The notes below the pieces were generated by a model. That model worked only from the letters and a program-made list of their open reading frames with translations. It had not been told where the DNA came from and did not search any database. From positions 1-64,000 of IMG/VR virus record IMGVR_UViG_3300022562_000520: 64,000 nucleotides of DNA. One strand, given 5' to 3'. The translations under genes were made by a program, and so were the position numbers. Below are positions 157 through 38,900 of the stretch, in pieces (positions within the stretch are counted from its first letter, which is position 1; each line of letters begins with the position of its first letter). This DNA is from a virus.

Positions 157-232
157 TGGTGCCCCTAGCAGGATTCGAACCTGCACCTGACTTCTTAGGA
201 GGAAGCCACACTTCCTATTATGCTATAGGGGC
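157..232 (-). tRNA. tRNA-Arg(CCU), CCA encoded
   Basis: On the minus strand a complete cloverleaf folds: acceptor GCCCCTA pairs with TAGGGGC, the T-arm carries a standard GGTTCGAATCC core, and CCA is encoded at 159-157. The anticodon stem GCTTC/GAAGT closes the loop CTCCTAA, giving anticodon CCU, which reads AGG. It lies a few bases beyond the stop codon of the 112-residue gene on the same strand. Confidence 0.9.
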
Positions 233-237
233 TAAAA

Positions 238-576
238 TTATTTGCGCCGTTGCTTCTTACGAGCTTGCTTCTGCGATTTCCGCTTTGCTTTACGTTGTGC
301 GTCTGTCGTTCTATTTCTAGTATAATTACTTTGAAAAATACCCATTTCGCTTCGCATACGCACAAACTCTTTCTTACTTAAATGACCAGCTTCTAACGCG
401 CCTTTTAACAACGCTAACATTTGCCTACTGGTAAATACTGTTTGCTGCTGTTCTGGTTCATCGGCGGCATCGTGGGCTTCATTAAGAGCTTCAAACGCGT
501 CTGCTTCATCTAATGCTACTGGAATTTCTTCAAAGTCCGCATCTTCGATATCATTATTTTCTATTTTTTCTTGCAT
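238..576 (-). CDS. Hypothetical protein, acidic N-terminus and very basic C-terminus (112 aa)
   Basis: I do not recognise this family. The first half is strongly acidic (D/E-rich to about residue 45). A middle segment (residues 48-80) could be helical. The last 25 residues are almost entirely Lys/Arg/Gln, as in nucleic-acid-binding tails. An AAAGGA ribosome binding site lies about 8 bases before the ATG. It sits between tRNA-Arg and tRNA-Ser on the same strand, so all three may share a transcript. The charge split would suit an RNA- or DNA-binding accessory protein, but that is inference. Confidence 0.7.
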   Translation of the reverse strand: MQEKIENNDIEDADFEEIPVALDEADAFEALNEAHDAADEPEQQQTVFTSRQMLALLKGALEAGHLSKKEFVRMRSEMGIFQSNYTRNRTTDAQRKAKRKSQKQARKKQRRK

Positions 577-610
577 CTCTACTATCCTTTCTTTGTTATG
601 GTTATATCAG

Positions 611-699
611 CGGAAGACAGAGGACTTGAACCCCAAGCCTGCAATAGGCTCCAACTGCTTTCGAAACAGTGTCTGCCACCAATGGCAGAATTATCTTCC
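611..699 (-). tRNA. tRNA-Ser(CGA), long variable arm
   Basis: Minus-strand class II tRNA: acceptor GGAAGAT/GTCTTCC, anticodon stem ACTGT/GCAGT around loop TTCGAAA (anticodon CGA, reads UCG), a long variable arm built on GAGCCT...AGGCTT, and a T-loop TTCAAGT. The discriminator base is G and CCA is not encoded, unlike the neighbouring Arg and CUA tRNAs. Its first nine bases are also the last two codons and TAA stop of the deformylase gene. Confidence 0.88.
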
Positions 700-1269
700 T
701 TTAAATTTTTTAATCTTCTTCTTCACGCGGTCTTGTTTTAGTCTAGATATACCATCAACAAAAACTTTTCCACATAAATGATCTATTTCGTGTTGAACTA
801 TAAAAGCCGCCAAACCTTGAAATTCATCTTGTGCTATCACATTTCCTGCGGTCTGATATTCAACCAACACCTTTTGTGGCCGCTTACGTTTTTCAAAATA
901 TCCCGGCACAGATAAGCATCCTTCGTCGAAACTATACATCAAATCGTTACTTTCAAGAATAACAGGATTAATTAATGGTATTATTCCCCTATTAATTTCA
1001 ACAACAATAACGCTTTGTGAAACTCCAACTTGTGGCGCAGCCAAACCAACGCCCTTTTTATGATACATGGTATATGCCATATCATAAATTAACTGGTGAA
1101 GTGTTTCATCAATTTCATGAACGAACTTACAGTGTTGATGTAAAATTTCGTCTGGCCAAAAAACCAAAGGCAAAATCTTCGGTTTTAGTTTTGGTGATAC
1201 CCCAAGAACATCAGGATTTGGAGGTACACTAGGTACCTCCAAATTCTTAGTCATTATATCAGTTTGCAT
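691..1269 (-). CDS. def: Peptide deformylase
   Basis: Zinc/iron hydrolase that removes the N-formyl group from nascent proteins. All three family motifs are present: GVGLAAPQVG (about residues 73-82), EGCLSVPG (about 116-123), and QHEIDHLCG (about 158-166) with the metal-binding HExxH. At 192 residues it is close to bacterial deformylases; the first 30 residues are a non-family extension and the C-terminus is Lys-rich. The ATG at 1269 overlaps the end of the HNH gene; an alternative ATG lies at 1254. The stop codon is inside the 5' end of tRNA-Ser. Deformylases are known in marine T4-like phages, where they are thought to support translation of phage or photosystem proteins; here the neighbours are tRNAs and bS21. 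Confidence 0.93.
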   Translation of the reverse strand: MQTDIMTKNLEVPSVPPNPDVLGVSPKLKPKILPLVFWPDEILHQHCKFVHEIDETLHQLIYDMAYTMYHKKGVGLAAPQVGVSQSVIVVEINRGIIPLINPVILESNDLMYSFDEGCLSVPGYFEKRKRPQKVLVEYQTAGNVIAQDEFQGLAAFIVQHEIDHLCGKVFVDGISRLKQDRVKKKIKKFKGR

Positions 1270-1846
1270 GTAAACGACTTACCTTTGGTACGCGCTTCAT
1301 CAAAAATTCCATTTGATCTGCGAGCACTTTACGGTTTTGCAATATCAACCATTCCGCACGGTTAGGTACGTATGGAACATAAAGCAATTCCATATTAACG
1401 TCTTCAAGCAATTTATCATCCTTGTGTTTGTTACATGGTGCACATGCGGTTACAACATTAGTCCATTTGTTTTCACCACCACGTGAAACAGGGTGAACGT
1501 GATCGCGTGTCAAATTTGCAGCATTGAAGGTTTCCCCGCAGTACGCACAGATGTTTTGGTCACGACGAAACAACGTTTTGTTAGTCAATGGAACACGATC
1601 ATAATGTTTCATTGCCTTTGGACTCATGTGTCCCTTAACAGCGATAATCGTGTTAATGGTCAAAATACTTCTTTCACCAGTTTTGGCACAAGTACCGCCG
1701 CGCAGATCAAACTCCACCTGTCCCATTGCCCAGGCGACGTTGCCTTTCGAATAGTGATAGGCAGAATCTTCATAAGTAATCCACTGTTGTGGGTTACCAG
1801 CTGCATCAAGCTGTAAAACTAATGGTAATTCTCTTACCGTAGTCAT
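1259..1846 (-). CDS. HNH endonuclease
   Basis: The protein has a classic HNH core in its second half: CxxC (CAYC, about residue 100), then LTRDHVHPVSRGG with the catalytic DH, then NVVTACAPCNKHK carrying the Asn and the second CxxC. This is the ββα-metal nuclease fold with a structural zinc. The first 90 residues are a separate domain seen in HNH proteins of the cyanobacterial/phage type. Such proteins can be homing nucleases or terminase-associated nickases; the position beside tRNAs favours a free-standing homing-type nuclease, but this is not proven. A good sigma-70 promoter lies just upstream (1904-1932) and the deformylase overlaps its 3' end, so the two are co-transcribed. Confidence 0.88.
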   Translation of the reverse strand: MTTVRELPLVLQLDAAGNPQQWITYEDSAYHYSKGNVAWAMGQVEFDLRGGTCAKTGERSILTINTIIAVKGHMSPKAMKHYDRVPLTNKTLFRRDQNICAYCGETFNAANLTRDHVHPVSRGGENKWTNVVTACAPCNKHKDDKLLEDVNMELLYVPYVPNRAEWLILQNRKVLADQMEFLMKRVPKVSRLHAN

Positions 1847-1903
1847 GGTACTTCTCCTTTTAGTGATATAGTATTTATATTACACATATTTACACAAATC
1901 GTT

Positions 1904-1932
1904 ATTATAAACACAATGACTGTTCTTGTCAA
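1904..1932 (-). promoter_or_regulatory. Sigma-70-type promoter for HNH/deformylase
   Basis: On the minus strand TTGACA (1932-1927) and TATAAT (1909-1904) are separated by exactly 17 bases, a perfect consensus. It lies between the 166-aa gene and the HNH gene and reads toward the latter. Confidence 0.85.
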
Positions 1933-1941
1933 TGGTTTTTA

Positions 1942-2442
1942 CTATGCTGCTTCTTCTAAAATCGCGTAAATTTGACTAAAATCAGTAGGTTTAAAATCAC
2001 CTTCAAGAATTTTATTTGCGATTTTTCTACCTATTCCATAATTAGAATAAAGTGGTTCTATCTTTGGCAACTCGATAGCTGCAAGTAAATCGATAGTTAC
2101 TACATGATTGAACGGTGCGAGGAACTGTACAAGCGAATCTGCTGCATATTTTGGTATCGATTTTCCATTAACGATTTCCTTCGCTCTGCTAATCTTTGCA
2201 GAAAGACTACAATAGGCATCATATAGGCCAGCATTTATTAAGTGCCCATTTTGTAATTTAGTCTTTCTGGTTATTGGTGTGAATCCACGTTCTGCTGGTT
2301 TGCCACATAGTAAATTAAACATCAAGTGATGTGCGCCCTGTAACCAGCAAGATGTTTCAGGATCGCTAATTCTAGCAGCGTTACTCCATGCGTGACGGAA
2401 TGAAATGTATTGTTCTTTGGTGTTAAAAATTGATTTAGTCAT
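1942..2442 (-). CDS. Hypothetical protein (166 aa), TAG stop followed by TAA
   Basis: Not recognised. It is a soluble, mostly helical-looking protein with no clear motif; the Cys/Trp/His-containing stretch SCWLQGAHHLMFNLLCG (about residues 31-47) is its most distinctive part. An AGGAG ribosome binding site precedes the ATG. It ends GCA GCA TAG TAA, so termination is doubled, which matters because an amber-type tRNA is encoded 165 bases upstream on the same strand. Confidence 0.75.
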   Translation of the reverse strand: MTKSIFNTKEQYISFRHAWSNAARISDPETSCWLQGAHHLMFNLLCGKPAERGFTPITRKTKLQNGHLINAGLYDAYCSLSAKISRAKEIVNGKSIPKYAADSLVQFLAPFNHVVTIDLLAAIELPKIEPLYSNYGIGRKIANKILEGDFKPTDFSQIYAILEEAA

Positions 2443-2606
2443 GATAAATTCTCCTATTAAGTGTGTGTTTCGACTATAAAAAATGTTAAATAAGACGAAA
2501 CACGTTAAGGAGGGGCACGACTACGGTGTACCTACGTGAAAGGGATTTTAAAAATCTAATGTTTAGTTAATTTCATCATAATTGTATATATCATTTGTTT
2601 TTAAAC
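2443..2606 (-). other. Intergenic region with short inverted repeat
   Basis: No gene seen. A short palindrome (GATTTT...AAAATC, about 2551-2564) lies downstream of the CUA tRNA and could help end or process that transcript. A TATAGT box near 2475 on the minus strand could serve the 166-aa gene, but no good -35 is seen. Confidence 0.3.
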
Positions 2607-2680
2607 TGGCGCTCGCGGTGGGAGTCGAACCCACGTGCAAGGATTTAGAGTCCCCCGCTATGCCTCTCAGCTACACGAGC
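2607..2680 (-). tRNA. Amber-suppressor-type tRNA (anticodon CUA), CCA encoded
   Basis: Minus-strand cloverleaf with all arms intact: acceptor GCTCGTG/CGCGAGC, D-stem GCTG/TAGC, anticodon stem GGGGA/TCCTT (two G-U pairs), T-arm GTGGG/CCCAC with loop TTCGACT, discriminator G, CCA encoded. The seven-base anticodon loop is CTCTAAA, so position 33 is U and the anticodon is CUA, which reads UAG. The ACTCTAAATC context is typical of suppressor tRNAs in recoded phages. G73 would be compatible with glutamine charging, but the amino acid cannot be proven from sequence. It starts six bases after the bS21 stop. Confidence 0.88.
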
Positions 2681-2686
2681 AAAAAT

Positions 2687-2902
2687 CTATCTGCCAAGTT
2701 TTTGCATCGCCGATTCGCGTTGTTGCTTTTGTGCGCGTTTTATTGCAGCAGCTTTAGCACGTTTACGTTTTTCCGATGGTTTTTCGTAGTATTCGTATTT
2801 ACGGAGGTCTTTAAGTACGTCTGCCTTGTCAACAGCTTTCTTAAATCTACGAAGTAGTGAATCAAATCTTTCTTTTGGATGTTTTAATGTTACTTTTGCC
2901 AT
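2687..2902 (-). CDS. rpsU: Ribosomal protein bS21 homologue
   Basis: A 71-residue basic protein that matches bS21 along its length: the helical [17 protein letters not shown] segment (about residues 19-35), the conserved [18 protein letters not shown] block (about 39-56), and a short basic tail. bS21 binds the 30S platform near the anti-Shine-Dalgarno region and affects initiation. Phage-borne bS21 copies are known from aquatic viruses and are thought to be built into host ribosomes. The stop is TAG. If read through by the CUA tRNA encoded immediately downstream, translation would add 13 residues and stop at a TAA inside that tRNA's own anticodon loop. Confidence 0.93.
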
Positions 2903-2934
2903 ATAATATGCTTTAATGTTAATAAAATTAAGGT

Positions 2935-3893
2935 TGAGATTACACCTTTACTGCCTGTACCTTTGTGTCATTATCCCATCACCTGCGACAGTTAGGGTTC
3001 TACACTTATCCACGCCCCCATGGGGTGTCTACAAGCATGACTGCCTTTTTTGAAGTGTGGCGATTCACTTGTCGCGTAAAGCTATTCAAGGTTTCATCTA
3101 CCGTCTGCCTTGCGAGCAGTCAAGAGGGGCCTCCTCACCGTGCGACTCTGCCTTAATGCCCTTCACCTTGCGGGTTCCAGACAACTACATTCACCGAAGT
3201 GTGTAGTATTAAGCCATTTTCACCTTACACCGGACGCGTCTTTGCGTTTTTCATGTAAAAGATAGTTGGGGTTGAACCAACAGTCTTCTGCGTCTAAAGC
3301 AGATGCCTTACCATTAGGCTATATCTATAACTAGCGACGATGTGCGCGTCCAGTAGGTTCGCGATCTTTTGGATCACAAAATGCTACACACCACGTGTCT
3401 TTCCCCTGCCGAGTACTTGACCGTTTGTCAAGATCACTGGAACCTACCCGTCTTAAACGGGGTCTACGGAACCAACAACCTTTAAAACTGAAACAACGCC
3501 CTTGATTGCGGTCTTGGACTATTTGTTCCTACCCTTTATCCATCATGGCTCGTGCTTTGGTCTATCTGGGGACGGGTACCAGCCGTTCTTCATTCGCTCG
3601 TGTTCCCTGCTAGCCCAAAGGCATAACAGGCACTTAAACAAGTGTTCTTTCCCAAATTAGCACTTCCCCCAATACATCCGGCGCTCTTTTCACCGAACGA
3701 CCCTTTCGGGCAGGATGAGGCTTGCGTTTGTTTACCATTTCTGGCGGTGGTTAAGCTAGATCCCCACCTTTCCCCCTGTTACCAAGGTTTATGCCCAAAC
3801 GCGGCAATTCTTTAACATGATGGGAATCAAGTCCCACTTTACTCGACGCTCGCCCGAAGGTTTGTGTCTTACACACCAGATAGTGCTACATGT
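2935..3893 (-). ncRNA. Candidate large structured noncoding RNA (GOLLD/ROOL-like in size and setting) with an internal tRNA-like domain
   Basis: About 960 bases hold no plausible gene, although flanking genes are tightly packed, and base composition is clearly GC-richer than the surroundings. Read on the minus strand the region is full of local helices: GTGT-GTAAG-ACAC, CCC-GAAA-GGG and a second hairpin enclosed by CATCC/GGATG (a three-way junction near 3673-3720), CACTT-GTTT-AAGTG, CCCGT-TTAAG-ACGGG, CTTGAC-AAACG-GTCAAG, GATC-CAAAA-GATC, and ACTACA-CACTTCGGTG-AATGTAGT near 3184-3208. A tRNA-like cloverleaf sits inside it (3257-3328). Giant phage RNAs such as GOLLD and ROOL are of this scale and occur near phage tRNA genes. 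Assignment to either family is inference; strand is chosen from neighbours and the tRNA-like element. Confidence 0.6.
3257..3328 (-). tRNA. tRNA-like element, anticodon UAG, short variable loop (tRNA or tRNA mimic)
   Basis: A cloverleaf folds on the minus strand: D-stem GCCT/AGGC, anticodon stem TCTGC/GCAGA around TTTAGAC (anticodon UAG, which would read CUA, Leu), T-arm GTTGG/CCAAC with loop TTCAACC. It is odd for a leucine tRNA: the variable loop is only about five bases, whereas bacterial tRNA-Leu has a long arm. The acceptor ATAGATA/TATCTTT has a T-T mismatch at pair 2-71, the discriminator is T, and no CCA is encoded. It may be a domain of the surrounding RNA rather than a working tRNA. 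Confidence 0.6.
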
Positions 3894-3980
3894 CAAAATT
3901 TATAAAAAGTGATATAACTTGTTACATCACTATGATTTGTTTGTAAACTTGTATATATTATACATACACAAAAAGATTTG

Positions 3981-4310
3981 TCAATCCCTTTTTTTCATTT
4001 TTTTGAAAAATTCTTCCGCTTCTTGATTTTGTTTTTTAATTACTTCCACCAATTCGCATTTTTCATAATCATCACCATCATCACCATCGTAAAATCTATG
4101 AAAATGGCTTTTGAACCATGGCCCCGGATTATCGGGATTTGGGTCATACATTTCAGCTATATAATCTGCAACGAAAAGTACCATAGTAATAATCAAAGAT
4201 ACTGTATCATCTAAAAGATCTATTAGCCACAGTCCCGTTTGGATTAAAAAAACAATGGCAACGATATGATAAAATGTCGATCTTACATGATGTCTTCCAA
4301 AAATATTCAT
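3981..4310 (-). CDS. Small membrane protein, two transmembrane segments (109 aa)
   Basis: Not recognised. Two adjacent hydrophobic segments (about residues 13-30 and 37-52) are joined by a short acidic LIDLLDDT turn. A hydrophilic, Asp/Lys-rich tail of about 50 residues follows. The start is chosen at 4310 because that ATG follows the TAA of the upstream lipoprotein gene by one base (TAATATG), implying translational coupling; an upstream in-frame start would overlap that gene. It is the last of three co-directional genes for envelope-targeted proteins. A role in altering the host envelope is plausible but unproven. Confidence 0.75.
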   Translation of the reverse strand: MNIFGRHHVRSTFYHIVAIVFLIQTGLWLIDLLDDTVSLIITMVLFVADYIAEMYDPNPDNPGPWFKSHFHRFYDGDDGDDYEKCELVEVIKKQNQEAEEFFKKMKKRD

Positions 4311-4311
4311 A

Positions 4312-5055
4312 TTATTCGCACAACGAAATGCTTCCATTACTGTGTATCATCGCATAAAATTCATCAATGATATCCGTAGTAACATACATTCTTCCACTAA
4401 CATAGTTCATATTATAATTAAAGTCTTTTACTGTGACCAAAAGACACTTATCTGGCACGATATATTCGAAACTGCTTAATCTAATAGTATAGGTATTGTA
4501 AAGTTCATCATAGTAAACTCCAACAATTCCATTTCCTGAATTGTTGTATTGTCTGAAATTAGACAAATAATTGACTATGAAAATAAAAGTTTCTTCACTA
4601 TTATCAATTAAAGCAGTGCCATAATAACCTTCTTCTTCATTTATATTAACTGCGTACATATCTAATACGTCAGCTTTAAAGACGCGTGCGTGAACTGGCG
4701 CTACAGTATTGCTTGTAAATACGAATTCATAATACAAGAATGTTTCTTTAGTATAAGATAGTGTCAATGGTGCTGGCCAGCCAGTTATACTTTGAAATAC
4801 GGCGGTTTGTGCTTCTGTAAAATTGTTTACACTTATAAATTCGTTGTTGATATCTTTTACGTGAAATGTAACAGCCCACTCATTTGGGTCTATACCCAAT
4901 GCATCAAAAGTAATATCGCGATTACTTTCTAGCGCAATATATGCATTTGATAGGCGAATATCAATTGTAGTTTCTGGAATAATATAATTAACAGTAGTAT
5001 CATTACTACATGCTGTCAACAACAGCAAGAAGATCGTTGAAAAAATAGTTTTCAT
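4312..5055 (-). CDS. Predicted lipoprotein, unknown function (247 aa)
   Basis: The ATG at 5055 gives a textbook lipoprotein signal: MKTIFSTIFLLLLTACSND, with lipobox LTAC and the acylated Cys at about residue 16. The mature part looks β-rich (alternating hydrophobic/Thr/Tyr stretches) with no motif I recognise. It overlaps the upstream secreted-protein gene by ATGA, so the two are translationally coupled. Phage lipoproteins can act in superinfection exclusion or as outer spanins, but this is much longer than a spanin. The Asp-free position after Cys (Ser) fits outer-membrane sorting in enteric-type hosts. Function is open. Confidence 0.78.
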   Translation of the reverse strand: MKTIFSTIFLLLLTACSNDTTVNYIIPETTIDIRLSNAYIALESNRDITFDALGIDPNEWAVTFHVKDINNEFISVNNFTEAQTAVFQSITGWPAPLTLSYTKETFLYYEFVFTSNTVAPVHARVFKADVLDMYAVNINEEEGYYGTALIDNSEETFIFIVNYLSNFRQYNNSGNGIVGVYYDELYNTYTIRLSSFEYIVPDKCLLVTVKDFNYNMNYVSGRMYVTTDIIDEFYAMIHSNGSISLCE

Positions 5056-5842: not shown

Positions 5843-6988
5843 TTAGTTATATTCAGTTCCGTTTTTACGTAATAGGTATTTTTCGCTTACACTTTTCAGA
5901 ATAACACGACCGATTTCATCATGCTTTCTTTCTGGGAATGGACGAATTACCACACCTTCGCGCATGTGTGCTTCTGTACCAGATGCGGTTTCTTTTCCAT
6001 CTGTGTATTTTTCTACAATTTCACGACTGTAAGGCCCAGCATATAGCATTGGTACTGCTTCCAATCCAAGTTGTTCACACATATAATGAACTTCGGGTTG
6101 TGTATAATATAATCCATTAGATGGATCGCCTAAGAAAATATCGAAGACGCGAAACTGAAGCGGTTGACCACCGTAAGTTAGGTCTTGTACACCCTCTCCA
6201 AAAATCTCTCCAAGGATGTAAACAGGTTCTTCAAAAAGTCCAATAAGGGTTCTAAGACGATCTAAAACTGACCAACCATCAGTATTTTTAGTAGCATCGT
6301 AGGCACGAATGTATAAATTTTTCGCATTAGCTTCATTAAACTTAAATGCTAAACCTTGACCACTTAAACCTTTGGAAGTAATAATAGGAATATCCGAATC
6401 AGGATGAAATCCCATACAACACCAAGTACCGTGGATTTTTTCTGTTAATGTGACATCTTCACCATCAATTAAAATATCTGGATACTTCTTCAAGTTTTCA
6501 ATATCATATTTTAGTGTCATACCAAAAGCATTAAAAACTTCACCTGCCATTTGTGTTGGAATTGGTGGTTCATACTTAGTAATACGCAGCCATTCAGTAA
6601 CATCATCGCCAATTTCTACGGAACGACCAAAGCCGCCTTCACTGTGCGTTACACAGTGAATATTAGAAATATCACCAGTGTCCATATCAATGCAGTCTTC
6701 GCGAGTTTCTACAGGATAAATTAAGCCCTGTGATAAGATGCCGCGAAGCTTAACAGCTTTTACACGGTTTTTATCCTTACCTGCAAGTTTACCTTCTAAA
6801 CCAAGACGTTCAATCATCCAATCGGGAAGAATAGCAGCCTCTGGAATATAAACACCAAGATCGCCGGTTTTAAATTGTCCTTTACGAACAATAGAACGAT
6901 AATCACCGACCTTTGCTAATTCAATTACGTCAGCATTGGGATGTTCTTCAATTTCCAATCTGTAAACTTTACATTCAAACTTACTCAT
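5843..6988 (-). CDS. RNA ligase, Rnl5/DraRnl-type
   Basis: ATP-dependent RNA end-joining enzyme. The nucleotidyltransferase motifs are in order: motif I EKIHGT with the AMP-accepting Lys at about 184, motif III VYILGEIFGEG (about 256), motif IV EGVVIRPF (about 343) and motif V ILKSVSEKYL (about 364). The N-terminal 140 residues form a separate OB-like domain, as in the Deinococcus DraRnl (Rnl5) family, rather than the T4 Rnl1 or Rnl2 layout. In a phage with many tRNAs a ligase would repair host-cleaved tRNAs. Its ATG overlaps the backup TGA of the upstream 87-aa gene, so the two are coupled. Confidence 0.88.
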   Translation of the reverse strand: MSKFECKVYRLEIEEHPNADVIELAKVGDYRSIVRKGQFKTGDLGVYIPEAAILPDWMIERLGLEGKLAGKDKNRVKAVKLRGILSQGLIYPVETREDCIDMDTGDISNIHCVTHSEGGFGRSVEIGDDVTEWLRITKYEPPIPTQMAGEVFNAFGMTLKYDIENLKKYPDILIDGEDVTLTEKIHGTWCCMGFHPDSDIPIITSKGLSGQGLAFKFNEANAKNLYIRAYDATKNTDGWSVLDRLRTLIGLFEEPVYILGEIFGEGVQDLTYGGQPLQFRVFDIFLGDPSNGLYYTQPEVHYMCEQLGLEAVPMLYAGPYSREIVEKYTDGKETASGTEAHMREGVVIRPFPERKHDEIGRVILKSVSEKYLLRKNGTEYN

Positions 6989-7608: not shown

Positions 7609-7637
7609 AGTATATCGATTTCTAGGTTTAATGTCAA
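7609..7637 (-). promoter_or_regulatory. Sigma-70-type promoter for the RNA-ligase operon
   Basis: Minus strand TTGACA (7637-7632), 17-base spacer, TATACT (7614-7609). The -35 box overlaps the TGA stop codon of the 72-aa gene upstream. Confidence 0.82.
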
Positions 7638-7837
7638 CGCGTTTTCTTTGGGGCTTTGTAGTTATCTGGAACTACATGAATTGAACGAACAATCACTGCC
7701 GGATTTAATCTTGGATCTGTGCCTGTTTTTTTCAATACCATAATATCCACTTCATCCATGGAAATATAATTAGGCTGTACAGTTTCAAAAATGGTCTTAT
7801 CTGTCTTAATATTTCTGTAAACATAATGTTTAGCCAT
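7634..7837 (-). CDS. Hypothetical small protein (67 aa)
   Basis: Not recognised. The start is set at 7837 because GGAGG lies nine bases before that ATG; the in-frame ATG at 7852 would lie upstream of this Shine-Dalgarno sequence. It is a small soluble protein with a basic C-terminus. It is transcribed divergently from the nuclease gene at 7934. Confidence 0.65.
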   Translation of the reverse strand: MAKHYVYRNIKTDKTIFETVQPNYISMDEVDIMVLKKTGTDPRLNPAVIVRSIHVVPDNYKAPKKTR

Positions 7838-29928: not shown

Positions 29929-32900
29929 TTAATCATCGAATATGCCAGATGTTTGAAATGGTCTAATACCATGTAATGATATCATCGATGTTTTAAATAT
30001 ATCAGGGTATTTAGCTTTGGTTGTAAATGCATCGTGCAATACCGAGAAGTATATTCTATTAACATGTGTATAAGAAAAATTATTATATATTTCATCCATC
30101 GCAGCAATTATATTATCTGCTGTATCAAAACTATTTTCGGTGAAGAAGCTGTCAATATTGATTGGACTAAAATCTATATTTGGATCTATAAGATATGCCA
30201 ATATAGTTCTTAATGCTAAATCACCATTTACGAATGCTTGGCCTGTTCCTAATCCGTATCGTGTATCAGTTCCATATTTTTCATCGTAGAGTTCACGTTC
30301 ATATGATGGTACCCTGATTGTTGTGTCTGCTAAAGTATAACCTATAATAGATTCTGTGATTTTATCCCACTGCCATCTATCAATATTAAATTGTTGTTCT
30401 CTTCTAAAAATTTTCCATTCTTCGTGAAGGTTCTTTAGATCGGTGCTTCCATTAGTTAAACTATCATTTTCAAGATTGTCACGAAGTGTAAAGTCCCTTG
30501 TAAATCTTATAGTATAACGATTATCAGCATTAACAATACCTTGAAGACCGCGTATTATAGCTTGTGTAAATCTGTTTGGTAACTTCTGTGGAATACTATC
30601 AACGGCAGTATATGTAATAGTTATTTCATCATTATTCGCTGGAAAATTTGGACTACCTGGAACGGCATTAATTACAATGACATTAGTTCCAGCCGTAAAA
30701 CTGAAATGACCTTCGGTAGATATTAAATCAATACCATTAACTTCTACATAAACATTGGTTCCTTCAGCAATATTATAATCAGTATAATATGTTATTGCTG
30801 GTGGTGAACCACCTATCGATGGTGGTGAACCTGTTACAGTTGTTAGTTCACGACGAAGTACTAATGAAGTTTCCGCCGTTATACTTGATTCGGCTTGAGG
30901 ATTCTGGAAAAACATGTGTGCAGCTGGAATACTAGCAAGTTGTACTTGCGCTTCTGCTATAGACATGGTTCTATTCTTATCTCTAGGTTTAGTACCTTTG
31001 TTTGTTACCCAAAAATAATAATTATAAAATAAGTTACCAAGTGTATCGTAATATGGTACTTGTGTATATTCATATTCTTGGCGATATGTTTCTGGTGAAC
31101 CTGCAAGTAAAATATCTATATCATCTTGATTTGTAGGTACAAATTGGACAAAACGTATAACATCCGCTTCTTTAATAAATGCATCATTAACAACATATCC
31201 TGATGTTATATCTGCATTTTCTTCATATATTATTCCATTAATATACACATTGGCATAATATTTTGTAGTTTCTGGCGAACCTTCAATAACGGAATCAAAA
31301 TTAACCAATGAAGGAGTGAAAGTATAATTATTTCCAGATAATACACCATCAATTGCTGTATACAATTCTACAAATTTATTAACAGCCGGTACCCAATCAG
31401 ATCCAACCTTTCTAAGTAAAATCTTCCTTGCTGTTCCAGCTTTTCTTAAATGTTCTTCTATTGTTCTATCACCCTCTTCAATAGCGGCAAGAGCATCCCA
31501 TTCTGCCGGTGGAACATCAGATTCAACCCATTCATAAATTTCTATATTACTCCAATCAGCAAGGTTGCCCCAGTTTCTAAAACGTTCTGTTCTGTCTGGA
31601 AACATCTGTTCACTATAGTATGGAACATAGTCAAGGTTTTCCGTATTTAACCAAGTTGTACCAACAAAACCATCTTTCCAAATATCAACATAGTTTTGCG
31701 TTTGTGAAGTAACACCATAACGCGCAGGATCATTTTCATTAATAAGATCTATATTATGAATAGCGGTAGTATAATGTTTTCCACGGGCAGGGTCCCAAAA
31801 CTGAATTGGTGATATTTGTGTTTCTGCTTCCCTGTCAATTATTCTTGCGGGGTTCTGTGCATCATCATTATAGCGCAATCCCCATATAGTAACATTATTA
31901 ACAGTATTTGGTGAACCGCCAGTTCCTTCAAGCCATTCAATAATATTATTATTAATGATATTGTAATGGGTTCCTTCTGTTAATGTTACAGTTGTACCAG
32001 TATCTACAAATTCTTGCGTAACTTCAACAAAATCTGCATCTAAATCGTGTTTAATATATGAAGAGCCATTATTAGTTATGAAATCTGTGGGCGAGTTACC
32101 ATAATTCCACTTATTCTTTATCTTCATATCAAAATACATTACTTTACCATTGTCACGTAAAACTTTAGTTTGATCTGGTTGATTATACCATCGATCAGTA
32201 TTTGACATTTTAATAGCAGTAAAAGTATTTTCTACAGAAGATTCATTAGTTTCATTATCTATGAATTCTAATCGTAATTCATTGGAGCGTGCATCAGCTG
32301 TCGCAACAAACATTTCAGGATATTCTTTTTCGCCAGTGGAACCAAAACTACCAACTTTAACAGCCCAATAATCGTCAACCTTAGCATCTATAAATCTGCG
32401 TGAATTAATATATGCCGTTACAGCATTTATAGAACCCTTGGCTTGAATCTGTCCTCTCCAGAATAAAAATTGTGATTTATTTGAAAGGTTTAAATTGGAT
32501 AAGTAATCTTTAGTACCTTCGTATCCCAATCCGTTACGTGCATATTCTGTCATTAGATTAGTTTCAAGCGTACGATATGTATCATATGCATTGCGAAGAT
32601 TTTCAACGCTTGCTTCTATATTTTCATTTAAGTTTGCACCTTGGTTAAAGAAAGTACTAAGGTAATATCCACCTACGTTTGGACGTTGGGTAAATTCCTT
32701 TTGTCTATTGAATAACATTTCGTATTTTGTTACATTCAATCCTATAAATGGGTCGTATAATAAATTATCTTCAGAAGTATAATTATTGAGAACCATTACA
32801 TGTTCATATGCATCTGTAAATAAATGTAATCCACCAAGATGTAATCTTGTATAAGCATCGGATATTAATGGTAACGTTTCGCCTTCGACGGCATCAAGTA

Positions 32901-35900
32901 CTTCTATTTTTGTCAATTTATCTTGTCTATAAACGCGCAATTGGTCTGTAGAAATTCTGTCCCCATTCTGATTAAATATTAGTTGTGTAGATCTTACATC
33001 CGCAGATGGACCTGTAATAACATTAGAAACTATACCAACAGTTGGTTCAAACCATATGGCGTTTCTAAATGGGTTAATTTCAAAATCTTTAATAGATGCT
33101 CTAAATTCTCTTGGCTTAGAAACAGAAAGATTACCAACACCTGAAATTGATAGTATATCAATTGCGATACCATCTTTAGCGCCTTGTTTTGTGGCTGATA
33201 ATCTAAAAGTATCAAGGGTATCACGTATTACATAATAACGGATACCTTGTGACAATGGTGTTGGGAAAACGTTATTTGAAGAAATAACGATAACTGGATC
33301 GCCTGTTATAAATGTTCTATTTGTGTCAACAAATGTAAATGTATCCGTTGTTATATCAACAGTTACAGGATATCTATCATTAAGTTGTTCTCTGAGTACG
33401 CGCTGCGAATACGCATATGTGATAAAGCGCTCTGTTTCTGTTTGCCAGTTAAGAATTTTTCCTGATGTTGGATCTTGTAATGTATGATCATTATTAACTT
33501 TCCAGCCGATATCATCAAGATATGAAGCATATCCTTGAATTATATTAACCAGCGTTTGCATTCCTTGAATTTCTTGAGGTGTATTAATTTCTAAAATGTT
33601 TGTTTTATCAAGTGCGTAAATTCTCCAATTCGTATTAGATCTGGCACCAGAATCTGCAAGGAATGTACTTACAATTTGACCAACAAAATGATCACTGCGA
33701 CCAGCCGATGTTATATCTATAGGAATTCCAGCTATAGCATTATTGTATGTTTCAGCTACTTTAAATGTTGTATCAGAAAGGCGTATAATATAATACTTTG
33801 TTGTACCTAATATTGTATCTGTAGCTAATGGTATTGGCATAGTTTCAGCCGTAGAAAGATAGATGGTATCACCGGTTTCCCATGGTATAGTTCTATAATC
33901 AGCCTTAATTACACCAGAAATTTCTGCGTCTGGAATGTTATTACTAACAAAAATTGTAGTTAATTTGGTTGTAGTATCGTAAGATGAAAGTTCTATATCA
34001 TAGGTAGCATCATTTCCTATAGAACCTTGAATATCAAATTGACTTCCGGCAATAAGTGTGGATGTCTGATCCCCAGCTATAGTAAATGTCTTATTAAAAG
34101 TATCTAAATCCTTTATCTCCCAAGTATACAATGAACAAATATCCGTATCTGGATCGGCATAAAATTGATAATTATGCACATCATAATATTTTAAATTTCT
34201 ACTAATAGAAATATTAGTTTTAAGTTCAAATCTCCAATCAATATGATTATCATATCTTGCAAGATTATAAGGTACATTTGTTATTGATACTTTAAGTGCA
34301 TCTAACCAATAATCATTAATTCCAGGTGCGCGTTTAGCTACAATATTATAATCAAAATTAGAAACGTTTACATATCTGTGAGCAAATGTTAAAGATGGCG
34401 TATCAATAAAAGAGGCAAATTGATATGTTAATGGGGCTGTCCAACCAGTCCACATTTCTCTAAAATTAGAAAAGTTGGCATCATAACCAGAATATCTATT
34501 ATAGTTAACATACCATTGGTTCATACCATTGCTTTTATATTGTTGATTATCTACAACTTCACCATGAAAATCAACACGTGTATGACTTGCCGTATTTTTT
34601 ATACGCTTACTAACTTGTAATCCACCTATAGTAGTTAAATCAAAACCGAAAGCTAAGAAGGAAAAGCGCATAGGATCTATACGAAAAGCAACTGTAAGTT
34701 GATCATATAAAAATTGTGAAGAAACGCGCCATTCCCATTCTATATTACCAGCATCACCGAAAACATAGCTTGCATTTGGAGATATAACTTCCGTAGTATA
34801 ACTAGAAAATAATGAACGTACTAATACATCGTAATTTTGCGGAATACCATTAAATGCAGTTATATAATCCCAATATGGTGGAAATACATCATCTGGATTA
34901 TATGTAGTGGTACCGCCATCTGCACTAAGTGGACGATTGGAGATATTAACACTAAAATAATTAAACGTAGGCAAATCTGGAACAGATAAGCCAAGTAAAG
35001 TATCTTCGCTAGGTACACCGCTCATTCCAAGAACACCATTCGGATATGTTCTATTTGGTGGAATCACTCCTATACGAATATTTTCCCACATTCCATATGC
35101 TTGTAATATTTTTCCAGAAGGAATATCACTAGCTACTGACTGTTCTAATTTTATAGAAGTTATATTTGTAAGTGGATCATATAACAATCCATTTATAAAA
35201 TGATCTGTTGTATTAAATTCACCAACATCTATAGATTCTTCTACCGTTATAATAAATGTATTCAATGAATGACTTACACTTTTAATAGTAAATGATTTTA
35301 TAAGTATGTTGTATACTGGATTTATTGTACGTTCAGCTATAGAAAATACCATTCCAACTTGATATATGTCCGCAGCTGGATCTGGTGGAAGGTCTTCTAT
35401 AACAAAAGAGGCTGATCCTGCTGAACCTGGATTTATCGCTATTAAATCATCACGCGATGCTATAGTATATACACCCGCATGTGTTACAGATTCATCAACT
35501 GTAAAAGATTGTCCTGAATAGAAATTTGTATGAAAATCACCGGCAATTCCAAATTGGCCATAAGTGATAGGACTTCCCAACAGTGATTGACCATCAAATC
35601 CATCATTATTAGAAAGGACAATATCAAACCCATGTTTGTATTTCCACTTTCTATCACCCCATTGTTCTACGTCATCATTAAGATATTCTTCATCCCACCA
35701 ATCTGGTTTATCAATATATCCCTGTAAAACCCAAGGTTCTGCATGTGGATATGGGGTTCCATAAATTTTAGTATATAAATCTCTCCAATCGCCACCGGAT
35801 TCTGAACCATCATTAAGGTTATTGGGTTGTGATATTGTTATTAGGCTAGGTAAAACACCAGAATATATTATACCACGGGTGCCATCCAATACATCACCTT

Positions 35901-38900
35901 CAACGAAAATACGTGTAGTATCATTCCCACTATCATAATATGTTGTAGGTGTAGTAGGTGTAGATAGTAATGTTTTCCAAGTACCATCGTTTACTGAAGA
36001 ATTCTTAATATAGAAGGTAATTTGTGAATTACATGCACCGCTATCTGTGCATGGATCAAAAGTTGCAACGTAATCACCTGCTACTAAGAAAGAATTAGTA
36101 AGACCATCAGCTTCCAATATCGTTAATCCACCACCAATAGATGAATTTTTATAGTTCCATGTAAATGCATCTGATGCATTATATTCTGTATTTTTATATG
36201 GTGATGTAATTTCATTTTGTGAAACATAATCTAAGAATGCTTCTTCTAAATATTGTTGATATTTAACAGGGTTATCGTTAGCTAATTGTTCAAAATCATA
36301 AGCAAGATTTGGAAATGTAGGAACATTGTCATATAAACGCGTTTCAATTTCATAGATAGTATCCCCCAATAAAGTATCAAGGTTTACTTCTTGCCATGCA
36401 GAAATTGTTGCGGTTGTTACATCATTTGGATCTGTTCCATTATGCAATCTTCCACCACCCAATAATAGACCTGTTACTTCATTCCATTCTACATTACCCT
36501 GATAATCAGTTTCTTTTATACGTAAAACTTCTAAACTTGGTGTCAAATCCATCCACAACGTTCCATCTGGAAGTGATGATGATGGTTGATCTTCACCAGA
36601 TTCTGCCACAATATAACGATATAATATGTTAGGTTCACCAGATTTAATTTGATACCAATAAACACCTTCTCTGTTTGATATAGCATCAAAGCTTGTTAAA
36701 AATTCGGAAATATTGTCGGGTGGAGACATTGATGATGTTACACCAATACCTCTATCAATAGTTCTAGGATCTGGTGAAGATACTACTAATTGAGAAATAA
36801 TATCTTTTGTAGCTTGTGTTAATTTATAACTATGACGATGGCCATCATGATGAACAACATCATTAAGGGACAAATTATCATCGACTATTCTATTAGGAGT
36901 CATAGCATTGACAAGATTAATATATGGAAGTGTGGCAATCCAATTTCTAATACCAATATCATTACTACCTTCTACATCTATAAAAGTTGTAGAATCTCCA
37001 TATACAAATGATGCTTGATCATTTAATTCGTGTTCTGTTATAACATTAGTAGCAACATAAGAAGATAAATCTAGGATGTTTGCTATTTCTAAATTTGTAA
37101 GTAAAGATATAGCATTTTCACGATAAATTTCTTTAACTGAATTTAGTAACTTTTCATATTGATCGTGGGCAAATTCTATTAATGTTCTTGGTGTAACAGT
37201 ATCAATAAAAATGGATGATAGTAAATTATCAAAACCATAGTTAAATTCTTTAATAGTTCCACCATATCCATAATTTACGTCATTAATAGGTAATAAATTA
37301 AACATACCATCTTTAGAGCCTGTATAACCAGGAATCAATGGTTGTTCTTCAATAATTGTTGAAAAATGTGTTAATAATTCGCGGGAATTTAAATATTTGC
37401 GATTTTCATGTAAATGATTATAATATAATGGATCTGGTATTTCCCAATCACCGATCCACGTGCCTGTAGAAGAAAGATGGTTAATCTGACTTTGGAACCA
37501 TTCTTGTGTTGCCTGTGTAATGGCTTCTGCTTCTATAGTATATGTTCCTTTAAGTATTAATTCAGCAGCACGAGCTGTGATATAATCATCCTTCTCTGTA
37601 TTATATTCTTCTAATGAACGTACATCCCAATCTACTTTTTCTGGAATATACATTTCATCGTTTAATCCACCTTTCCAAATGGTTTGTAAATTTATATCCG
37701 TTACATAGTTATCAAATTTTTCAATTTCTACCCATATATTACCAGATACAAATCTTCTATATAATTTATCTAATACAGGATTATACCAATATAATCCATC
37801 AATAGCACGTAAACGAGAGTCTGGTTCTACTTCACTAACTATAGCTTTAGTATAGTGTTCTGACATTTCTGTCTTATCGCTCCATTCTACACCTCTCCAA
37901 AAATATACAACCTGTGTATCAGGATTATACCAATAATCTTCTTCTTTATTAGCATAATCACGATAGGCATATAAAACACCGTCATCTTCTTCTAGTAAAA
38001 ATTGGTCAAATTCATATATGTCATTGACTGAATCATATACTATACGAAATCCAGTATTAACATTAATTTCATATTCCGAGGATGTTCTATATCCAAAAAT
38101 TGGATTAGCTTTATATGCTGGCGTTCCATCAACATTAAATATATCAAATAACGGATATTGATTAGTTCTAGTTTTTATCTGTTCTACTTTACGATAATTA
38201 ATTAAACTTATAGCAGAATCACCAACTAAATCATAAGTTTCATCACTTTCTACCATTCTAACTTTATTTAAATGACTACCCAATTCATCAATAGAAGAAG
38301 CACCTACTTCAATAGCAACATTTAATCCAGCATCAACTGGGTTAAAAAATTCTATACCAACTACATAAACAGTTATACCATTTTTATTAGAAGAAAAGTC
38401 AGGATCAGCATCAGGTTGAATTGGTGATGTGATATTTGATATATCACCGCTTATTGTAGCACCTGGTGGAATTCCTGGACTACCGCTGACACGTATTCTA
38501 TTTGAATTAGGTACAGTTGGTGGTATAACTTGAAAATCCATAGTTCCAAAATTGCTATTTCCAGATACACGAATTGTATCACCAGTATTAAAATATTGTG
38601 AGTAATTTCCATCAACTATAAATTCATTCGTATCATAATCTATGGATATAATATCTAAAACTACTTCACCCAATTCATCATATGTTCCAAATTGGCGTTC
38701 TATATCAGTTCCAGCTGCATTAGTAAGGTAAACACGTATATCATCAAAACCATATAATGCTTGACGATTCAATGGACGGGTGTGTCCTACTTCTATACTA
38801 TCAGTTAGATAAAATGTTGACCAACTATTTCCCGGTGAACCGACCTTTGTTACGAAATATTTTTGTTGATATGCCGATGTTGTATATTCATAAACTTCAC

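Follow-up and report, generated by a model that had tools for sequence, protein, structure and literature searches.

Open reading frames of at least 100 amino acids cover approximately 89% of the window analysed here (a 64,000-nucleotide stretch of viral DNA, read with the standard code). The virus record to which it belongs is 100,293 bases long and has four tRNAs or tRNA-like genes within positions 157-3328 of the window. An earlier note on this DNA had drawn attention to nearly 1 kb lacking a gene and elevated in GC, and had proposed a structured RNA of one of the giant phage families there, with a cloverleaf inside it. We found no credible gene in this gap, the longest open reading frame that begins there encoding 63 amino acids, and GC content is approximately 48% over 3001-3750 compared with 31-39% in most neighbouring windows. 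The gap lies directly upstream of bS21 and a CUA tRNA, as the note had it, and both genes follow on the same strand. The features of the locus, including matches to the GOLLD RNA family and to two related loci (L023 and L024), are as follows.

2607-2680, minus strand: free-standing tRNA with a CUA (amber) anticodon, CCA encoded just after it (ARAGORN; Rfam tRNA, 58.9 bits)
2687-2902, minus strand: bS21 (rpsU) gene, starting 29 nt after the GOLLD 3' end (Pfam PF01165, E = 5.9e-16)
2931-3394, minus strand: GOLLD 3' domain (full-length Rfam RF02032 match)
3257-3328, minus strand: tRNA-like domain in the GOLLD linker (ARAGORN tRNA-Leu(uag); Rfam tRNA, 64.8 bits)
3292-3298, minus strand: anticodon loop UUUAGAC, anticodon UAG (arm parsing)
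3395-3825, minus strand: GOLLD 5' (less conserved) domain, about 420-430 nt (homology to L023 and L024; covariation)
3826-3956, minus strand: leader from promoter to 5' domain, with no homology to the two relatives detectable by blastn
3957-3984, minus strand: perfect sigma70-type promoter, TTGACA-16-TATAAT (12/12 consensus match)

The GOLLD element and its neighbours

The Rfam model RF02032 matches 2931-3394 on the minus strand with a score of 198 bits against a cut-off of 150 (E = 2.3e-54). The alignment spans model positions 1-416 of 416 and is not truncated, and the 3' end of the element is at 2931. Since the match is above the cut-off and covers the whole model, the giant RNA family proposed earlier can be named as GOLLD; the accession offered for it, RF01998, was wrong, the correct entry being RF02032. 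ROOL, which had been put forward as the alternative family, gave no Rfam match, either in the window at the gathering score or in 2500-4100 at the looser threshold of E ≤ 10, and OLE RNA likewise had no Rfam match in the window or in 2500-4100. The covariance model, together with covariation in the 5' domain, upholds the claim of a structured RNA. The density of hairpins that was part of that claim is by itself weak evidence, because the folding energy of the minus strand is unexceptional (z = -0.59, with 5/20 shuffles folding equally well; not significant). That ordinary folding energy would suit an unrecognised coding region or a random non-coding stretch, a reading with practically no probability left to it, since the full-length Rfam match already refutes it and both the compensatory changes in the 5' domain and the lack of a credible open reading frame argue against it. 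The window element is almost certainly a structured GOLLD RNA of approximately 0.9 kb, judging from these sequence comparisons. GOLLD, its cage and linker tRNAs are already known, and the element is a further member of the family.

RF02032 models the 3' domain only. For the 5' part, the test drew on two relatives to which bS21 had led, the virus record L023 (363 kb) and the record L024 (61 kb). Positions 3395-3815 are 75-76% identical to these relatives by blastn, with homology starting near 3815-3825. RNAalifold on the three sequences gave 108 pairs, with 96.6% of cells paired. Two-sided changes were present in 26/108 pairs, a count that comes from three sequences and a structure derived from the same three; shuffled alignments gave a mean of 9.6, with 0/500 reaching 26, and the slid structures gave far fewer (0-2). 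Absence of covariation and coding homologues had both been named beforehand as grounds for giving up a structured RNA; covariation is present in the homologues, and the two closest of them have no coding there. On the strength of this covariation, the upstream part (3395-3825) is a second structured domain. Its length of ~420 nt agrees with the 5' region of the env-38 GOLLD, residues 1-420 (PMC12286853), the two being compared by length alone.

The promoter at 3984-3957 is the likely start of the GOLLD transcript, given its sequence and position. In L023 and L024 there are likewise perfect promoters, two per locus, at 10 and 95-114 nt upstream of the 5' domain. A survey of the 89 GOLLD loci with enough upstream sequence gave 11 in which a perfect promoter lies 700-1400 nt upstream of the 3' end; the background is 0.023 perfect promoters per kb (both strands, all loci). 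Co-transcription of GOLLD, bS21 and the CUA tRNA is plausible, since the interval from GOLLD to bS21 has no predicted terminator and the two relatives keep the same order. Accumulation during phage lysis would be expected of a GOLLD RNA.

The GOLLD-bS21 order also occurs in L023 and L024 and is absent from the other GOLLD loci examined (3 of about 110). Thus bS21 was rejected as a general partner of GOLLD, and on gene order across these loci the arrangement is a feature of one clade. Two Acinetobacter matches (H2 and H3), considered as candidate GOLLD loci, turned out to be bS21 genes in apparently chromosomal stretches; in CAKLQF020000002.1 and CAKLQH020000004.1, both labelled Acinetobacter phage, the surroundings of bS21 resemble a bacterial chromosome (htpX, gcp, yqeY). 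The ARAGORN label 'Pyl' on the tRNA at 2607-2680 is due solely to its CUA anticodon. A similar tRNA with a CUA loop comes after bS21 in L023, and amber tRNAs near GOLLD are also present in Xanthomonas phage XacN1 (two copies; L021 2381-2539). Recoding of TAG as an explanation for these tRNAs was rejected for the window, which uses the standard code despite its amber tRNA (2607-2680, minus strand): readthrough of TAG adds little to the 89% already covered. Genes for tmRNA lie near GOLLD in several phages (L021 3535-3955, L007 8209-8581 and L009 12665-13142). The cultured phage XacN1 has a tmRNA near a GOLLD that is unannotated, and its GOLLD occurs twice in the record with identical scores (38570-38983 and 357365-357778), possibly as terminal repeats.

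Other genes around the GOLLD-tRNA region, all on the minus strand, encode an RNA ligase with a PHA02142-type OB domain (5843-6988), a peptide deformylase (691-1269) and an HNH endonuclease (1259-1846). An RNA-ligase-like gene ends just upstream of GOLLD in L023. Immediately upstream of GOLLD in the window, a small protein with no Pfam match is encoded at 3981-4337 (minus strand), and a similar open reading frame precedes GOLLD in L024, so that synteny extends upstream. Further away, 29929-41019 (minus strand) is one open reading frame of 3696 amino acids.

A tRNA-like domain with a reduced acceptor end

The cloverleaf that had been placed at 3257-3328 on the minus strand was recovered at exactly these coordinates by both ARAGORN and the Rfam tRNA model. 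The D, anticodon and T arms are intact, and U33 and a TTC T loop are present. While it stands as a cloverleaf, the domain is unlike a normal tRNA gene. The acceptor strands, AUAGAUA/UAUCUUU, have one U-U mismatch and so fall short of a 7-bp stem, the discriminator position is U, and CCA is not encoded, in contrast to the neighbouring tRNA at 2607-2680. The equivalent acceptors of L023 and L024 form 6/7 and 5/7 pairs. Both relatives have the loop CUCUAAA (anticodon CUA) where the window has UUUAGAC, on nearly the same body; between the window and L023 there are 4 differences in the body, and 5/7 loop positions differ.

Within the GOLLD alignment the cloverleaf sits in an insert between model positions ~78 and ~130, which corresponds to residues 497-538 of env-38, the disordered linker in the interior of its cage (PMC12286853). 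The presence of a tRNA there is not new, because linker tRNAs have already been reported. The condition of a tRNA lying within the GOLLD linker is mentioned in PMC12286853, and PMC6582537 describes the linker tRNA of a mycobacterial GOLLD as a pseudo-tRNA that was undetected by Northern blot.

To survey the linkers of the family, DNA patterns were run on IMG/VR and the records searched with Rfam, giving about 120 GOLLD records; more came from another pattern, one placed on the 5' flank of tRNA-type linkers. After removal of identical sequences there were 158 distinct linkers, 68 of which have a tRNA-like domain tethered through its acceptor and 2 of which have a permuted tRNA. In the first, less selectively gathered set the tRNA-like domain is present in 34/107 linkers, or about a third. 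Linkers without any tRNA are common, and many GOLLDs carry other filler.

One parser, blind to the acceptor, was applied both to the 68 linkers and to 879 free tRNAs from their loci. Pairing at acceptor positions 1-7 is 50, 31, 69, 93, 97, 91 and 96% in the linkers and 89-95% in the free tRNAs, the linker acceptor being cut to about five pairs. All seven pairs are formed in 3/68 linkers against 710/879 free tRNAs, and CCA is encoded in 3/68 against 765/879; the free tRNAs were picked by ARAGORN, which favours good acceptors and somewhat inflates the contrast, but this does not explain the absence of CCA. By comparison, U33 is present in 66/68 linkers and a full anticodon stem in 63/68. From these counts we conclude that the D, anticodon and T arms have been kept and the amino-acid end has been lost. 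Consequently, although tRNA finders count such linker domains as phage tRNAs (the tRNA-Leu called here is an example), they probably are not. An acceptor strand UCGCAA(A/U) is common to 24 linkers with 8 different anticodons, a set that was chosen by that strand. The leading anticodons, CUU (18), GUU (9), UCU (8), UAG (6) and UUU (4), are unlike those of the free set, and the Lys anticodons CUU and UUU account for 22/68 linkers. Stop-codon anticodons also occur in linker domains, with UUA, UCA and CUA in L372, L162 and L368, respectively.

The two permuted cases have a different architecture. In L007 (about 4765-4865, plus strand) and L229 (about 7615-7710, plus strand) a circularly permuted tRNA lies inside the GOLLD linker, in the order T arm, acceptor 3' strand followed by ACCA, a short loop, acceptor 5' strand, D arm and anticodon arm. 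The acceptor is fully complementary in both, with 7/7 pairs, and CCA is encoded. As read from this arm order, the variable region would form the connection between the tRNA and GOLLD, with a free or capped acceptor end. L007 has a near-copy in L018. When viral sequences were scanned specifically for further permuted linker tRNAs, only L007 and L229 came up, and a parser match in L420 was discarded as it was without tRNA features. Permuted tRNA genes known so far reportedly undergo circularisation and are then cleaved back (PMC10085705). Within the literature searched we found no published permuted tRNA in GOLLD, a family reportedly first described by Weinberg et al. in 2009.

Variation of the anticodon loop

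The anticodon loop of the linker domains changes far more than the body that carries it. Among pairs whose bodies share at least 95% identity, 12/14 linker pairs but only 4/91 free tRNA pairs have different anticodons, and in clusters formed at 90% identity the anticodon differs in 6/9 linker clusters against 9/81 free clusters (Fisher p = 0.0005); many of the distinct linkers are related, so that these statistics are not fully independent. Across 12 disjoint pairs of non-identical linkers, mismatches amount to 38.1% in the loop and 5.9% in the body, a ratio of 6.4, while 75 free tRNA pairs give 5.3% and 5.5%, a ratio of 1.0. Some linkers are identical or nearly so except in this loop. L159 and L371 have identical bodies and flanks that are 98% identical, with loops CUCUUAA and AUUGAAG; in L388 and L389 bodies and flanks are both identical, with loops UUUAGAU and UUUAUGU.

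The anticodons of linkers and of free tRNAs at the same locus showed no relation, being neither copied nor avoided (10/36, with 8.3 ± 2.0 expected), and the idea that linker anticodons fill gaps in, or copy, the free tRNAs of their locus was rejected. Nor do linker loops match free-tRNA loops better than triplet-shuffled loops do (41 matches against a mean of 37.1). The candidate explanation that the loops are exact copies of real tRNA loops is thus a weak one, and close mimicry of real tRNAs by these loops is only weakly supported by the sequence comparison. Loss of the acceptor as a rule, hypervariability of the loop and permuted linker tRNAs all appear to be unreported within the literature searched.

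Possible roles and comparison with known systems

To our knowledge, GOLLD and its cage have no known function. Because the loop is hypervariable while the acceptor is lost, we infer that some reader of anticodon loops drives the change and that charging is not needed. Tentatively, then, the tRNA-like domain may be a non-charged, tethered mimic of the anticodon arm of a chosen tRNA, plausibly acting as bait for host anticodon nucleases. GOLLD RNA would assemble into a cage of 14 subunits with the linker inside, as suggested by env-38, for which cryo-EM gave a homo-14-mer with the linker pointing inwards (PMC12286853). The uncharged domains would then present many tethered copies of an anticodon arm. 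Each mimic would bind and occupy a reader of anticodon loops, most plausibly the anticodon nucleases that hosts use against phages; as the opponent changes, the scaffold would stay fixed and take on a different anticodon. Anticodon nucleases are favoured here because they are the best-known readers of anticodon loops. Changes in the anticodon loops of phage tRNAs have been predicted to allow escape from such nucleases, and PrrC cleaves tRNA-Lys (PMC10264068), so that the Lys anticodons in 22/68 linkers lend support to bait. Phage tRNAs rescue phages from retron-Eco7 and PrrC170 (PMC11555353). Those that are reported to do so replace the cleaved tRNA or resist cleavage, with a translation function presumed essential in one case (PMC11555353), which counts against bait. 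The inward-pointing linker of the published cage is a further difficulty, as a nuclease outside might not reach it; by analogy with env-38, a closed cage would suit bait poorly, unless it can open or is assembled only after capture. Mimicry itself has to contend with the permuted tRNAs of L007 and L229, whose complete acceptor and CCA would fit charging rather than mere display, and with the many linkers without any tRNA, which count against it. Of the readings considered, non-charged, tethered mimicry ranks first, and bait is its likeliest purpose, a view we take with moderate to low confidence. A broader formulation, possible but somewhat less probable than this, is that GOLLD cages carry a programmable tRNA mimic, in which the loop of a fixed, acceptor-less scaffold is swapped under diversifying selection. 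The mimic would serve as a multi-copy sponge or bait for anticodon-loop enzymes or as an anticodon-addressed binder of ribosomes, a few lineages reaching the same end with a permuted tRNA.

Docking on ribosomes is the main rival, given the cited pull-downs and the neighbouring bS21, and we consider it unlikely without being far-fetched. The tRNA-like domain, with no usable CCA end, would dock at the decoding site, so that a cage or half-shell binds, stores or modulates ribosomes, with the adjacent bS21 modifying the same ribosomes. GOLLD is cited in PMC12286853 as pulling down ribosomes, bS21 is adjacent and in the same order in three phages, and the parts of the tRNA that have been kept, the anticodon arm and elbow, are those that touch the small subunit and the mRNA. 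The confinement of bS21 to 3 of about 110 loci weakens this argument, and a hypervariable loop on a fixed body would be unexpected if the target were as conserved as the ribosome, unless chosen codons are targeted.

Slightly less likely again is a normal phage tRNA gene in the linker, whose product would be released from the GOLLD transcript by RNase P and other enzymes, CCA-tailed, charged and active in translation, with GOLLD as its carrier or timer. ARAGORN and Rfam do both call a tRNA, most linkers have intact D, T and anticodon arms, and the two permuted linkers have complete acceptors with CCA. The acceptor counts tell against such a gene, with seven pairs and CCA each in 3/68 linkers against 710 and 765 of the 879 free tRNAs nearby. 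The UCGCAA(A/U) strand shared by 24 linkers across 8 anticodons also argues that the acceptor belongs to GOLLD rather than to the identity of the tRNA, and the mycobacterial pseudo-tRNA was unseen by Northern blot (PMC6582537).

We give a little less weight still to the view that the linker tRNA is a functionless, decaying relic caught in a loop that is disordered and tolerant. In its favour, the linker lacks order in the solved structure and varies in length (PMC12286853), acceptor ends are eroded, and other filler occupies many GOLLDs. Decay should however spread evenly, yet the loop changes 6.4 times as much as the body, while body and arms stay paired (63/68 anticodon stems, with U33 in 66/68); tRNA-like domains also recur in 34/107 of the less selectively gathered linkers.

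Should the linker domains prove to be non-chargeable with faster-changing loops, this would point to a partner that reads anticodon loops and would make function testable by simple swaps. The cassette of bS21, GOLLD and amber tRNA offers a compact system in which to test function.

Compared with GOLLD as represented by RF02032, the window element is alike in its whole 3' domain, its location in a phage near tRNAs and its linker tRNA. It differs in having bS21 directly downstream, in a 5' domain whose sequence recurs in just two relatives, and in a linker domain that is truncated at the acceptor and variable in the anticodon, a description not found in the literature searched. In both the element and env-38, the linker comes some 66-77 nt after the beginning of the 3' domain. 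The mycobacterial GOLLD likewise has an internal tRNA-like gene judged non-functional; it is found on a bacterial chromosome in a tRNA array, and acceptor loss and loop swapping are absent from the passages of PMC6582537 consulted. ROOL RNA is also phage-borne, cage-forming and near tRNAs, and differs in that the window has no Rfam match to it. OLE RNA is another large ornate RNA with a proposed link to RpsU, or bS21 (PMC12286853), a link which in the window consists of gene order alone. Finally, the linker tRNAs of L007 and L229 have the same arm order as permuted tRNA genes and permuted tmRNA, and differ from these in being embedded in a phage GOLLD linker and joined to it via the variable region.
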